From a bacterium (lineage in GTDB: Bacteria; UBA9089; CG2-30-40-21; SBAY01): DNA of 19,449 nucleotides. The notes under the pieces were generated by a model. It saw only the letters and a program-made list of their open reading frames with translations, was not told the DNA's origin and made no database searches. Where the stretch lies: contig JBFLYA010000057.1 in the NCBI GenBank assembly GCA_040757115.1, positions 1-19,449 of the forward strand, read 5' to 3'. The first letter of the stretch is position 1. Every line of letters begins with the position of its first letter. Positions 6,287 to 19,449 of the stretch are shown piece by piece. Both the position numbers and the translations under genes were made by a program.

Positions 6287-6315
6287 TTGACAAAAATAAC
6301 TATGTATCGTATAAT
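6287..6315 (+). promoter_or_regulatory. Consensus sigma70 promoter for the tRNA pair
   Basis: TTGACA at 6287-6292, a 17-bp spacer and TATAAT at 6310-6315 match the consensus exactly. Initiation near 6322 would fall in the first bases of hairpin element B1, with the tRNA genes beginning at 6468. Transcription may continue into the zinc-ribbon gene at 6665. Confidence 0.8.
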
Positions 6316-6317
6316 TA

Positions 6318-6462
6318 TATAGTAACTATTAACCAAAAGTTCACATTAGTATTGTTGATAGTTGATGGTTGATAGTCTATGAAACTATAAACTATAAACT
6401 ATCAACCATCAACCCTGTTGCTATATCTGTTCTATGAGAAATTTTCGTTAATAACTACTATA
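6318..6462. mobile_element. Family B hairpin element, copy B1 (MITE-like)
   Basis: The ends TATAGTAACTATTAAC and GTTAATAACTACTATA are inverted repeats, and the core pairs GTTGATAGTTGATGGTTGAT with ATCAACCATCAAC. Element B2 at 8664-8808 is the same 145 bp in the opposite orientation with only two differences by eye. It lies between a perfect promoter and the tRNAs, starting three bases after the -10 box. Confidence 0.8.
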
Positions 6463-14053: not shown

Positions 14054-14099
14054 TATCTCAAAACCCTATATCACCGGGCTATCGAGTCCCTATTAAAAA

Positions 14100-14408
14100 A
14101 TCTTAATTTGTGCCGTTGTTGAGTATAGATTCATTGATACATTAAAAAAAGAATTTCTCGATAAAGGAGATTTACTTTACGGTTCATTTGCCACTGGAGA
14201 AATTCACCAAGGAAGCGATATTGACATGGTCATTGTAGGTGAATTTAAGGGTAAGATATTTGAGCGGATAGAAAAGGTGCTAAAACTTACTGATTTACCT
14301 ATCGAGCCGCTTGTCTATTCTGAAAAGGAATTCCAGCAAATGAAGGAAGGCAATCCCTTCATAAAAGAGGTCATAAAGAGGGGGAAGATTTGCTATGCCA
14401 GAGAATGA
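14100..14408 (+). pseudogene. Minimal nucleotidyltransferase (MNT-type), start codon missing
   Basis: The open frame encodes about 100 residues with the polymerase-beta-type nucleotidyltransferase motif LYGSFATGEIHQGSDIDMVI, including the GS and paired acidic DxD residues. It then runs LPIEPLVYSEKEFQQM and ends KRGKICYARE. That is nearly a full MNT domain of the kind paired with HEPN proteins in toxin-antitoxin systems. No ATG, GTG or TTG occurs in frame between the upstream stop (14091-14093) and the motif; the first in-frame ATG (14226) lies after it. Either a rare start such as ATT at 14106 is used, or the 5' end is lost or frameshifted. Its stop overlaps the cas10 ATG by 14 bases, suggesting translational coupling. 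No HEPN partner is next to it. Confidence 0.7.
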
Positions 14409-14547
14409 AAAAAACCAATCAGACTACCAATCAATAATGTTAGCCGCACTTTTGCATGATATTGGCAAATTTATGCAAAGGGCAGAGGTTAAACTGAGTG
14501 CCCAGTCAGAAAGGATGAAGGAATACTTATGCCCTAAACATAAATAA
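14395..14547 (+). pseudogene. csm1: Cas10/Csm1 N-terminal fragment with HD motif
   Basis: ATG 14395 opens a 50-residue frame, with AALLHDIGKFMQRAE holding the HD nuclease motif (H21, D22) that begins Csm1-type Cas10 proteins. It continues SERMKEYLCPKHK and stops at 14545. The residues MKEYLCPKH recur at the start of the 812-residue downstream frame, because the DNA is duplicated there. Removing 73 bp between the two copies would fuse this fragment in frame to the rest, giving an 852-residue Cas10. The remaining HD-domain residues (SHKH, SSYHHKP, EADCLSAGVDR) are in the downstream frame, so the domain is split between two polypeptides, if both are made. Confidence 0.85.
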
Positions 14548-14614
14548 TGGATAGTGTGTAGTTTTCCCTCCCAGTCAGTCAGAAAGGATGAAGGAATACT
14601 TATGCCCTAAACAT
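14501..14614. repeat. Partial tandem duplication that splits cas10
   Basis: Copy 1 (14501-14541) and copy 2 (14570-14614) both read CCCAGTCAG...AAAGGATGAAGG through CCTAAACAT; copy 2 has four extra bases (TCAG). Between them are 28 bases with stop codons. The right edges are 73 bp apart, which is not a multiple of three. Confidence 0.9.
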
Positions 14615-17026
14615 CCACCAAAACATCCCAATGATGATGGTTATTCCCACAAACATACCCTCTGGACAAATGAATTCTTTGAACCTATAGTTTCAAACCT
14701 ACCTCCTGAAATCAATAAAACCGATGTAGTTAACCTATCAAGCTATCACCATAAGCCAGCCACAGATCTACAGACAATAATTCAAGAGGCTGATTGTTTA
14801 TCTGCTGGTGTAGATAGAACAACCAACGATGAAGAAGATGAGCAGTTTGGAAAAGATGCTTACAAAAAGAGAAGGTTACGAGCGATATTTGAACAGATTG
14901 AATTAAATTATCCTCTGAAACGAGACGAGAAAGGTAATCTAAAAAATATTTATCGTTACGAACTATTACCATTAAACTTACAAAAGCAAACTATCTTTCC
15001 TAAAAAACAGAGTAAACTTAGTCCACCTGAAGGTGAACTTTTAATAAATGAATATAATAACCTCTGGAAAGGGTTTATTAAAGAATTTAACCAGCTACCT
15101 GTTGACAACTTTGACCTCTTCTTTAACTCCCTTTATTATCTTCTACAAAAGTACACCTGGTGTATCCCTGCTTCAACTATTGACTTCCCAGATGTATCCT
15201 TATTTGACCACCTAAAGACTACTGCGGCTATCTCCGGATGTCTTTATAAATACCATTTACAAAATGAATCTTTTAATGAACAATCTATTAAAAATAGAGA
15301 TGTAGATAAGTACCTTTTGGTTTGTGGGGATATAAGCGGAATCCAGCAATTTATTTACAAGATTTCCTCCAAAGGAGCGGCAAAGGGATTAAAGGGAAGG
15401 TCATTCTACCTACAGATACTCCCAGATGCTATTGCTCACCATATCCTGCATAACACAGGGTATCATATAGTAAATCTGCTATATTCTGGTGGTGGTAAAT
15501 TCTATCTCTTGTTAGACCCCAACTCTGAAAACACCTTAAAGGATATTGGTAAAGAAGTTAACACCTATTTGTTGGAGCAATTTCAGGGAGGCGTATATCT
15601 TGCGTTAGGATGGTGTCATCTTAAAGGGAGTGATTTTGCTAAAAGGGAGAAGGTGGAAAGTGAATTTTATCTAAAATGGCAGGAATCTACCCGGGAGGCA
15701 AATAAGAAAAAAAGGCAGAAGTTCTCAGAATTTCTATATAATGAGGTTTTTGGTATTTTTGGTGAAGGAGCTGAAACGAAAACCTGCGAGATATGTAAAA
15801 ACGAAATAGTTGAGAATGAAACAAAATGTCCTGCTTGTGTCCTAAACGAAAAGATTGGGACAAGATTGGCAAAAGTAGGTAGAGGATTTATGTTAGAAAC
15901 CTATAACCAGGAAAAGGAAATTGATGAAGAGGGCTTTATTTTTGAACTATTAGGAATAAAATACTATCTTATCTCCAAAGATGAGATAAATAATATCAGA
16001 TCTGAACATGCAATGCTTTATACCATAAATACTACTGATATGTCCTTTATAAGGAAAGATATTACCTCTGGCTTCAAATTTATTGCTGGGAATTTCGCTC
16101 CTTCAGATAAAGAGGGAAATATTTTAACCTTTGGTGAATTAGCACAAAATTCCTCTGGTGGCTTAAAGAGATTAGGAATATTAAGAATGGATGTAGATAA
16201 TCTTGGTCAGATATTTATCAAAGGCTTGGGCAAGAAGGCTTCTATATCACGGGTAACTGAACTTAGTAGAAAATTGGAACTTTTCTTTGGGGGGTATCTG
16301 AATGAAATTGTCCAACAACAAAGTTATGACAATAAGGTTTATATCGTATATTCAGGTGGAGATGATCTCTTTATAGTAGGGGCATGGGATGTAATGCCTG
16401 AATTGGCAAGAGAGATACAGCAAGAATTTAAAACATTTACTTGCTCAAACCCTAATATTAGCTTATCTGGAGGTATTACCTTAATCCCTGGGAAATATCC
16501 CATCTATAAAGGTGCTGAATTAGCAGGGGAATCTGAAGAAGATGCAAAGAATTACAAAAGAAACGGAAAAGAAAAAGATGCGTTATCTTTCTTAAATACA
16601 GTAGTAAGCTGGAATGAATTTGAGGTAGCTTATGCAATTAAAGATATGCTGGTAAAATCTATAAAAGAAGGGAAAATAGATAATCTTTCCGGAGAAAATG
16701 TGTATCTAAAAAAGGGAATACTTGAACGATTGAGGCAAATTTATTTACTCTATCAGAAGAATAAAAATTTCTGGGAAACCAGGCAAACACAGATTAGTCA
16801 ACAAGAAATGCAAGAAAGAATTTACTACAACCAATGGTTATGGATGATGGTCTATTCCTTAGAAAGATATAGAGAACAGAATAAATTGTTTCAAGAGGAG
16901 GTGAGTCAGCTTATCCATGCTATCCTCGGTAAAGAATTTAACGGAATAAAGTCTGACCGCGAGGTCATTGATTTTATCAACTTACCTGCCCAGTGGGCAG
17001 AATTTTTAGTTAGAGAGGAGGGATAA
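14588..17026 (+). CDS. csm1: Cas10/Csm1, main part (type III-A CRISPR)
   Basis: Large subunit of the Csm interference complex, which makes cyclic oligoadenylate signals and, through an HD domain, cuts single-stranded DNA during target transcription. In order, this 812-residue frame has the rest of the HD domain (YSHKHTLWTNEFFE, SSYHHKP, EADCLSAGVDR). The first palm domain follows with GDISGIQQFIYKISSKGA and LKGRSFYLQ. Next come a four-cysteine zinc finger (CEICKN...CPACV, about 399-418), the second palm with LRMDVDNLGQIF, and the cyclase motif SGGDDLF (GGDD at 590-593). A helical C-terminal domain ends the protein. GGDD is intact, so signalling could survive. The first 40 residues, including the HD pair, are in a separate frame. 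Two bases separate its stop from the csm2 GTG. Confidence 0.93.
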   Translation: MKEYLCPKHPPKHPNDDGYSHKHTLWTNEFFEPIVSNLPPEINKTDVVNLSSYHHKPATDLQTIIQEADCLSAGVDRTTNDEEDEQFGKDAYKKRRLRAIFEQIELNYPLKRDEKGNLKNIYRYELLPLNLQKQTIFPKKQSKLSPPEGELLINEYNNLWKGFIKEFNQLPVDNFDLFFNSLYYLLQKYTWCIPASTIDFPDVSLFDHLKTTAAISGCLYKYHLQNESFNEQSIKNRDVDKYLLVCGDISGIQQFIYKISSKGAAKGLKGRSFYLQILPDAIAHHILHNTGYHIVNLLYSGGGKFYLLLDPNSENTLKDIGKEVNTYLLEQFQGGVYLALGWCHLKGSDFAKREKVESEFYLKWQESTREANKKKRQKFSEFLYNEVFGIFGEGAETKTCEICKNEIVENETKCPACVLNEKIGTRLAKVGRGFMLETYNQEKEIDEEGFIFELLGIKYYLISKDEINNIRSEHAMLYTINTTDMSFIRKDITSGFKFIAGNFAPSDKEGNILTFGELAQNSSGGLKRLGILRMDVDNLGQIFIKGLGKKASISRVTELSRKLELFFGGYLNEIVQQQSYDNKVYIVYSGGDDLFIVGAWDVMPELAREIQQEFKTFTCSNPNISLSGGITLIPGKYPIYKGAELAGESEEDAKNYKRNGKEKDALSFLNTVVSWNEFEVAYAIKDMLVKSIKEGKIDNLSGENVYLKKGILERLRQIYLLYQKNKNFWETRQTQISQQEMQERIYYNQWLWMMVYSLERYREQNKLFQEEVSQLIHAILGKEFNGIKSDREVIDFINLPAQWAEFLVREEG

Positions 17027-17028
17027 CC

Positions 17029-17439
17029 GTGCAAAATCAGGAAAGAATCTGGACAGAGCAACAGATTGAACAAATTATTAATGGTGACACAAAACAATTG
17101 GTGGCTACTGCAGAGAAGTTGGGTAAAGATTTGTGTGATAAGAAGGATGAGAGGGGTAATATTTTGTCTAAGGGAATGACCAAATCACAGATTAGGAATA
17201 TCTTTAATTCTGTTAAGCAGATGGAGATGAAAGGCTTCAATCCAAAAGATCTGTTATTGCTAAAGCCTAAACTGGCTTATGCTGCAGTTCGACCAGGAGC
17301 GACAAACGGAACCAGAGTGATTAAAGATATTCTTACTAAAGCAATTGATAAGGTAGGTGATGACGCTAAAAAATTTGATAATTTCTGCAACTTCTTTGAG
17401 GCTATCCTGGCTTATCACAGAGCCGCAGGCGGAAAATAA
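17029..17439 (+). CDS. csm2: Csm2, small subunit of the Csm complex
   Basis: The 136-residue helical protein occupies the standard csm2 position between csm1 and csm3. Segments such as MTKSQIRNIFNSVKQMEMKG and LLLLKPKLAYAAVRPG, followed by FCNFFEAILAYHRAAGGK, are typical of Csm2. It forms the inner belly of the complex and helps hold the RNA duplex, without catalytic function. The GTG at 17029 is preceded by GAGGAGGG at a good distance. Confidence 0.92.
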   Translation: MQNQERIWTEQQIEQIINGDTKQLVATAEKLGKDLCDKKDERGNILSKGMTKSQIRNIFNSVKQMEMKGFNPKDLLLLKPKLAYAAVRPGATNGTRVIKDILTKAIDKVGDDAKKFDNFCNFFEAILAYHRAAGGK

Positions 17440-17456
17440 AAGGAGGTGTTTTGAAG

Positions 17457-18209
17457 ATGGATAACGATTTTAAATTACTCAAGAAGATATTTATAACTGG
17501 CACAATAGAGGTAAAAACAGGGCTTTGTATCGGTGGAAGTAGTGTAGGATTAGAGATTGGAGGCGCAGATAAGGTTGTGGTAAGAAACCCCATCAATAAT
17601 CAACCCTATATCCCAGGCTCATCACTTAAAGGAAAGATGAGAAGTTTATTAGAAAGATTTGAGGGGAAAATGAGTATTAAAGAGAAAAAGGATGAAAAAG
17701 GCAACATCATTGGCGTGAGTGCTGAGCCTTGTGAATGTGGAACCTGTTTAATCTGCCAGATTTTTGGTCTTCCTGCAGAAAAAAAGGGAATGCCAGCCAG
17801 ACTGATTGTTCGAGATGGAATGTTACAAAATCCCGAATTGCTTGAAAAGAGTAAATTTACTGATATGCCCTATGCTGAGATTAAAGCAGAGGTGGTAATA
17901 GATAGGATTACTTCTGTCGCTACACCAAGAACCTTTGAACGGGTGCCAGCTGGTGCAAAGTTTAATCTTAACCTTGTATGTAATATCTATAACGGTGATA
18001 CAGAGTCAGATATCTTAAAGAAGATATTTGAATCACTTATCAAGGTTCAGGAGGATTATTTGGGAGGAAGTGGCACAAGGGGATATGGAGAGATAAAGAT
18101 TACAATCAATACGCCACTAAAATATAAAGACCAAACTGTCTATGAAGGGGATAATAATCCAAAAAGTATACAAAATAATAGCCTTATCCCTTCTCAGCTT
18201 CTTTCGTGA
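17457..18209 (+). CDS. csm3: Csm3, backbone RNase of the Csm complex
   Basis: A RAMP (Cas7-group) protein that polymerises along the crRNA and cleaves target RNA every six nucleotides. Near the N-terminus, GLCIGGSSVGLEIGGADKVV contains the conserved aspartate (D38 from the ATG), which corresponds to the catalytic Asp of characterised Csm3. PYIPGSSLKGKMRSLLE is the family signature, CECGTCLICQIFG the cysteine-rich zinc-site segment, and GGSGTRGYGEIKI the C-terminal glycine-rich loop. It is 250 aa from ATG 17457; a TTG six bases earlier is only four bases from AGGAGG, so the ATG is preferred. The stop overlaps an upstream in-frame GTG of csm4. Confidence 0.94.
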   Translation: MDNDFKLLKKIFITGTIEVKTGLCIGGSSVGLEIGGADKVVVRNPINNQPYIPGSSLKGKMRSLLERFEGKMSIKEKKDEKGNIIGVSAEPCECGTCLICQIFGLPAEKKGMPARLIVRDGMLQNPELLEKSKFTDMPYAEIKAEVVIDRITSVATPRTFERVPAGAKFNLNLVCNIYNGDTESDILKKIFESLIKVQEDYLGGSGTRGYGEIKITINTPLKYKDQTVYEGDNNPKSIQNNSLIPSQLLS

Positions 18210-18220
18210 GGAAATGGAAG

Positions 18221-19210
18221 ATGGAAGATATAACCGCATATAAACTTGAGTTTAAAACACCATTACATCTTGGTCAGGAAGGGATTGGATTAGAAAAGAC
18301 TGATATGATAATCCATTCAGATACCCTCTTTTCAGCTCTTCTCTCTTGTTGGAACCTATTTTATGCTGATGACTTGGAAAAGGAAATAATTAATAATCCA
18401 CCTTTTATCATCTCTTCTGCTTTCCCCTTTAGTAAAGATGACTATTTTCTTCCAAGACCTATGATAAGGATAACCCTGAACCAAGAGGTTCAATCTAAGC
18501 AGATAAAAAAGATTAGATTTATCTCAAAGGGGCTATTTGAAAGGATAATTATAGGTGAGGAGGTCTTGTTCACGGAAGAAAATACTCTACAAGGTGGTTT
18601 ATTCTGGACAGAAACACAAGACACATCTCAAGGAATATTTAAAAAGCGGGAGGTTCCCCGGGTAAGTATTGACCGACGAACAAATACCTCGGATATATTC
18701 TATTTTAATGAGCTGGTATTTACACAAGGTTGTGGTTTATTCTTTTTGGTTAAGTTCTTATCTCCCCAGATAAGACAAAAATTTGAAACGGTGCTAAACC
18801 TCATGGGAGATGAAGGAATAGGTGGTGATAAGCATCTGGGAAAGGGTGTATTTGATGTATTAAAGGATGAGCCGTTCAAATTAAACACACCATCACAAGC
18901 TAATCACTTTCTTACCCTCTCTCTGTTTCATCCTACAGAAGATGAGATAAAAAAAGGACTTCTTAATAATTCAAGCTATGAACTCATCCTTCGTAGGGGT
19001 TGGCTTCACTCTAAAGGTGCAATGAGCCTTAAGAGAAAAAGCATACGAATGTTTCTTGAAGGTTCTGTATTTAAAGAATTTGGCCAAAAGGGTTATGGCA
19101 ATATCCCAAATGTCCTGGAAAAAAATGAGGAACTAGGGACTAACCATAATGTCTATCGTTATGGAATAACCTTTAATATTCCTATCAAAGTGAGGGACAA
19201 TTATGAATAA
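18221..19210 (+). CDS. csm4: Csm4, crRNA 5'-handle-binding RAMP protein
   Basis: A Cas5-group RAMP protein that caps the Csm backbone at the crRNA 5' tag and contacts Cas10. ITAYKLEFKTPLHLGQEG and HSDTLFSALLSCW form the typical N-terminal region. EDYFLPRP-like sequence (KDDYFLPRPMIRI) follows, with VSIDRRTNTSDIFYF in the middle and the glycine-rich MGDEGIGGDKHLGKG loop near residues 200-210. From ATG 18221 it is 330 codons including the stop; a GTG at 18206 gives a version five residues longer, overlapping the csm3 stop. The ATG is favoured by GAGG about nine bases upstream. It overlaps the csm5 start by eight bases. Confidence 0.92.
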   Translation: MEDITAYKLEFKTPLHLGQEGIGLEKTDMIIHSDTLFSALLSCWNLFYADDLEKEIINNPPFIISSAFPFSKDDYFLPRPMIRITLNQEVQSKQIKKIRFISKGLFERIIIGEEVLFTEENTLQGGLFWTETQDTSQGIFKKREVPRVSIDRRTNTSDIFYFNELVFTQGCGLFFLVKFLSPQIRQKFETVLNLMGDEGIGGDKHLGKGVFDVLKDEPFKLNTPSQANHFLTLSLFHPTEDEIKKGLLNNSSYELILRRGWLHSKGAMSLKRKSIRMFLEGSVFKEFGQKGYGNIPNVLEKNEELGTNHNVYRYGITFNIPIKVRDNYE

Positions 19211-19349
19211 ATATAATATCTCTGTTTTAAGCCCAATTCATATTGGAAATGGAAATAAATTAAGCACGATAGATTTTGTCTATGACAATAATACCCTTTG
19301 GATTATTGACATTGAAAAGGTTATACTCGATGTTCAAGTTTTTGGATAG
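19203..19349 (+). pseudogene. csm5: Csm5 N-terminal fragment
   Basis: ATG 19203 overlaps the end of csm4 and opens a 48-residue frame: ISVLSPIHIGNGNKLSTIDF, VYDNNTLWIIDIEKVI, then LDVQVFG and a stop. The first 40 residues match the beginning of Csm5, a Cas7-group RAMP subunit at the crRNA 3' end that helps recruit trimming nucleases. Csm5 normally has roughly 350 or more residues. The next 100 bases to the window edge have stops in the continuing frame, so the gene is broken by a deletion or insertion here. The rest could lie beyond the window if something has been inserted. Confidence 0.8.
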
Positions 19350-19449
19350 GACTCAATATGATAGAAGTTTTTGGCACGAATTAGCTAAATAAAGAAAGGT
19401 CTTTTGCCGATAGTAGAAATAGTGTGAAGACACGAAATTTACTATTCGG
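19336..19449. other. Junction sequence after the csm5 break
   Basis: AAGTTTTTGG occurs at 19336-19345 and again at 19365-19374, a direct repeat spanning the csm5 stop. Further on, CCGATAGTAGAAAT (19407-19420) and ATTTACTATTCGG (19437-19449) form an imperfect stem-loop at the window edge. This could be the end of an inserted element. No coding sequence was recognised. Confidence 0.35.

Follow-up and report, generated by a model that had tools for sequence, protein, structure and literature searches.

A split cas10 gene carrying a 73-bp insertion with the geometry of CRISPR spacer integration

A Cas10 divided between two frames

What divided the cas10/csm1 gene of a type III-A CRISPR locus into two reading frames, and what has the division left of the protein? 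The window, a stretch of 19,449 nucleotides, is the entire contig C57 of a 4.3-Mb genome bin of 462 contigs. It carries a type III-A operon at 14395-19349, in which cas10/csm1 is followed on the forward strand by csm2 (17029-17439; PF03750 and TIGR01870), csm3 (17451-18209; TIGR02582), csm4 (18206-19210; TIGR01903) and the start of csm5 (19203-19349). On the same strand, a nucleotidyltransferase frame of the MNT/Pol-beta-like kind (14097-14408) overlaps the start of cas10 by 14 nt; it shows no ATG, GTG or TTG near its 5' end and is probably 5'-truncated.

A type III-A Cas10/Csm1 is expected as one protein, but here the HD domain, the zinc finger and the GGDD palm, although all present, are spread across two frames of the forward strand. 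The first (14395-14547) encodes 50 residues, which contain LAALLHDIGKFMQR and the HD motif LLHDIGKF, and ends with a TAA at 14545-14547. The second (14588-17026) encodes 812 residues with the HD residues YSHKH and YHH, the zinc-finger cysteines and the GGDD cyclase. The two fragments match positions 3-35 and 25-753, respectively, of the NCBIfam Csm1 model TIGR02578 (753 positions), which, together with the open reading frames, confirms the partition described in an earlier note on this DNA. The break falls in the variable link between the helix of the HD motif and the YSHKH stretch. An addition of 73 bp shifts the frame by +1 (73 mod 3 = 1) and the inserted DNA also brings a stop, while frame arithmetic gives 852 codons for the insertion-free gene; this agrees with the earlier proposal that a duplication causes both the stop and the frameshift and that removal of 73 bp restores 852 residues.

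One reading of this arrangement is a natural two-part Cas10 whose polypeptides assemble, or else a reversible switch between the split and the whole gene through the 39-bp direct repeats that bound the insertion. Both fragments are open, the second has its own copy of MKEYLCPKH with an ATG, and direct repeats of 39 bp favor precise loss by slippage. However, the stop of frame 1 lies at 14545 and that of frame 2 at 14552, beyond it, with frame 2 opening only after 14552; hence no single frameshift joins the frames, and these stop positions rule out a programmed frameshift or readthrough. The native ATG at 14395 is preceded by GAGGGGG at a normal distance; the ATG at 14588 sits 40 nt past the TAA and has AGAAAGG abutting it directly, at zero spacing. 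Furthermore, the two copies of the repeat are 100% identical, which indicates that the split state is recent, and in relatives the HD motif stands in a continuous Cas10 frame. A functional two-part Cas10, which the earlier note had offered, is thus not supported, and we consider it, or a split-whole switch, quite improbable.

Judging from the sequence, the cell is expected to lack the HD nuclease half and to make the cyclase part poorly. Exact reversion by slippage between the 39-bp direct repeats is possible, and phase variation through them, also raised previously, is mechanistically possible. The comparison with related genomes suggested at that time did yield a continuous cas10 frame, but not an empty site, the best cas10 relatives being only 36-38% identical. 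In a distant relative (G088, contig C22) cas10 also occupies two frames, of 246 and 526 aa, but there the interruption is another one and follows about 220 residues.

Anatomy and authenticity of the 73-bp insertion

The insertion is bounded by two identical 39-bp copies, at 14503-14541 and 14576-14614, with a period of 73 bp and a chance expectation of about 1e-16 for such a repeat pair. The strictly unique piece between them measures 34 bp (14542-14575), and the whole copy-insert-copy structure spans 112 bp. The duplication noted earlier is hence real, but its lengths had been given as 41-45 bp around a 28-bp spacer, a figure that counted CC plus a 4-nt AGTC offset upstream of the second copy. 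If the duplication is set at 37 bp, the copies occupy 14505-14541 and 14578-14614 and the insert becomes a 36-bp, single-copy, spacer-like piece at 14542-14577, for which no source was found. The 3' end of the insert, CCCAGT, repeats the beginning of the next copy (AGTC AGTC).

The best local match of the insert to its flanks scores 17, against a mean of 18.4 for shuffled letters, and it is therefore part of neither flank. Likewise, no template for the 34-bp piece rises above shuffled letters on either strand of the surrounding kilobases, which rules out local or inverted templating, and no further copy was found in the assembled 4.3-Mb genome within 3 mismatches. Since the piece is duplicated nowhere and is without a genomic source, the structure is not a plain tandem duplication, and its lack of likeness to the neighborhood points to a piece of other origin inserted along with a target duplication of about 37 bp. 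The label of a partial tandem duplication accordingly does not apply in its usual sense, the piece between the copies being absent from both flanks. The further suggestion of a recent inactivating slip holds for the inactivating split but is weakened for the slip, because a slip copies neighboring sequence. When we scanned 2.51 Mb of this repeat-rich genome, with CRISPR arrays and protein repeats set apart, no second isolated pair of exact copies, each 32 bp or longer, was seen to enclose an unrelated piece of 25-60 bp.

Two familiar kinds of element were also considered. A transposon or MITE is at odds with a 34-bp piece present in single copy and a duplication that, at 39 bp, is not short. 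A canonical CRISPR array is at odds with a single unit whose duplicated sequence is cas10 coding sequence, identical at 16 of 37 positions to the repeat of the array on contig C42 (see below).

Could the contig instead join pieces that were never together in one cell, through misassembly or a mixture of strains? The bin is fragmented into 462 contigs, an N gap interrupts the array on C42 between duplicated flanks, and C57 ends in a fork that it has in common with C42. Against this, the longest overlaps between contig termini measure exactly 127 bases, which is also the most frequent distance of forks from the contig ends, indicating an assembly graph with k=127. As this exceeds the 112 bp of the structure, the structure with its flanks should occur in single reads, an argument that is not absolute given that multi-k assemblers may carry over paths from shorter k. 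An assembly error, which the earlier note had named as possible, is thus unlikely, and we hold artefacts of either kind to be highly improbable as the explanation. A strain mixture is possible in itself, and the inserted form would then be the one preferred by the assembler.

Adaptation modules and the case for spacer integration

The genome carries three cas1 genes, and intact cas1 and cas2 frames lie on contigs C42 and C301. The array on C42 has 37-bp repeats and spacers of 35-42 bp (mode 37), giving a period of 72-79; related repeats occur on C7, and another family of 37-bp repeats on C301 and C110. On C42 the order is the C-terminus of a csm6-like gene, a fusion of reverse transcriptase, TPR and primase-polymerase (RT-TPR-PrimPol; CAPP type A1), cas1, cas2 and the array. 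The fusion protein (C42 659-3523) comprises 954 residues and is encoded directly 5' of cas1. Within the array, an N gap at 6295-6394 has the identical two repeat-spacer units on either side, representing a scaffolding duplication. A second Csm1/Cas10 on C7 (L026, 6524-8854) aligns with the Csm1 model from position 92 onward only and hence seems to be without an HD domain; next to it come a CARF protein and then a small array whose repeat is of the C42 type.

Bases 1-120 of C42 are the reverse complement of 19324-19443 of the window, so that C57, coming from csm5, and C42, coming from csm6, run into one sequence. Judging by this shared terminal stretch, C42 is probably a neighbor of C57 within one type III-A locus, in which case the integrase would be part of the locus that it damaged. 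In the window, csm5 breaks off after 48 residues where, at the end of the contig, it is joined to csm6-region sequence in inverted orientation. A 15-bp inverted repeat (TACTCGATGTTCAAG) marks the beginning of the common stretch, which suggests that part of the population carries a csm5-csm6 segment in inverted orientation, or else that the join is chimeric. With csm5 also cut in the assembled contig, the locus may be inactive for two reasons.

Spacer addition to an array duplicates the whole repeat around an insert of spacer length, while target duplications made by transposases as a rule fall well short of CRISPR-repeat length (PMC4940900). The insertion in cas10 fits the proportions of spacer addition: a duplication of 39 bp at most (35-39 bp by register) compares with the 37-bp repeats of C42, C301 and C110, and an insert of 34-38 bp by register compares with spacers of 35-42 bp on C42 and 35-40 bp on C15, with 73 = 37 + 36. 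Spacer integration, which was absent from the options of the earlier note, is thus the best-supported reading of the insertion geometry, and we infer that the cell's own Cas1-Cas2 probably made the insertion in an off-target event. The adaptation module on C15, with 29-bp repeats, was rejected as the agent, the duplication being too long; the module on C301 matches in repeat length but not at the leader-repeat junction.

In such an event, the Cas1-Cas2 integrase would insert a spacer into cas10 rather than into a CRISPR array, attacking the two strands of the 37-bp target (first copy 14505-14541) at both ends, so that a prespacer of about 36 bp would become joined between the target ends. Gap repair would then duplicate the target on either side, just as the repeat is duplicated upon spacer addition to an array. 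The site would probably have been chosen through the likeness of CCCA/GTCAGAAA to the leader-repeat junction of the array, CGCA/GTAGGAAA. The resulting +73 insertion would split Cas10 between the HD motif and the rest, and slippage that removed exactly one copy together with the insert would make the gene whole again.

With a duplication of 37 bp, three registers, each on either strand, can be compared with this junction. In the forward-strand register that starts with GTCAG, the target agrees with the C42 junction at 5 of 6 positions from -4 to +2 (0.2% of genome positions are as good), 12 of 19 from -5 to +14 (0.08%) and 20 of 47 from -10 to +37 (0.9%); the match is far weaker for the other registers and strand and for the C301 leader. 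The windows were picked after seeing the sequence, with about 20 combinations of register, strand and leader for each of several window lengths, which brings the corrected significance to only about 0.02-0.1, and the likeness hence supports spacer integration but does not prove it. The position that would have been attacked on the top strand of the target is a guanine.

No protospacer was returned by three 20-22-mers of the insert searched against viral contigs, by one searched against genome contigs, or by blastn against phages and plasmids. This could be counted against spacer integration, but two genuine C42 spacers used as controls are also without a match in viral contigs, and no inference can be drawn from the missing protospacer. 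Spacer integration further leaves the CCCAGT and AGTC AGTC at the second junction as a coincidence, which a slippage model explains, and it concerns one event in one genome.

It is at this junction that its main rival, template switching, does better. A polymerase would have copied the 39 bp, jumped to another template or added about 34 bp of filler, and returned to the start of the stretch; duplications with filler do occur in bacteria. Template switching explains the CCCAGTCAGTCAG overlap as a slipped re-entry and better accounts for AGTCAGTC at the second junction. However, a template for the filler is absent from the 4.3 Mb and from the neighborhood on both strands, the scan of 2.5 Mb revealed no further such event, and the two lengths that match CRISPR repeat and spacer, together with a target that matches a leader-repeat junction, would all have to be coincidences. 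We accordingly view template switching as a serious but rather unlikely account.

There are precedents for integration by Cas1-Cas2 outside arrays. Off-target sites of the purified type II-A Cas1-Cas2 of S. thermophilus resemble the leader-repeat junction over about 5 bp on each side, with a preference for guanine where the strand is attacked (PMC6895254); the cas10 target has such a guanine on its top strand and a suggestive likeness to the C42 junction. Those in vitro events were likely half-site reactions on plasmids, whereas the event in cas10 would be a completed, two-ended one with full duplication of the target. In E. coli, Cas1-Cas2 places spacers in the genome outside the array (Nivala, Shipman and Church 2018, as summarized in PMC11788318 and PMC9456107), and the piece in cas10 similarly is spacer-like and lies outside an array. 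The E. coli case, as these summaries present it, involved overexpressed Cas1-Cas2, whereas the present one concerns a natural genome, a type III-A system, an RT-PrimPol module and a hit in the cell's own effector. CAPP-associated Cas1-Cas2 integrates prespacers, and without IHF does so inefficiently at the right place, according to the excerpted text of PMC8211822. The RT-TPR-PrimPol gene followed by cas1, cas2 and array on C42 is of the CAPP_A/CAPP-RT kind treated there; the window itself lacks these genes, and off-target integration is not described in that excerpted text. Finally, insertion sequences naturally inactivate cas genes with duplication of the target (PMC10359306), as happened in cas10, but those inserts are transposons with short duplications (9 bp being typical for IS1), whereas cas10 received a spacer-sized piece without a transposase and a duplication of repeat length.

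Implications for type III systems

If spacer integration is indeed the cause, it may be asked whether hitting its own effector serves the cell as a natural, reversible off-switch for type III immunity, undone by slippage and possibly favored when the locus harms the host; we regard this extension as improbable. Off-target integration by Cas1-Cas2 has been observed with purified or overexpressed enzymes, and natural scars of it are easily missed because they contain no CRISPR repeat. Were the cas10 insertion such a scar, repeat-length duplications around spacer-length inserts would provide a signature that can be searched for, and spacer adaptation would have a mutational cost visible in genomes. 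It would also mean that a type III system equipped with an RT-PrimPol module is able to harm the genes of its own effector.
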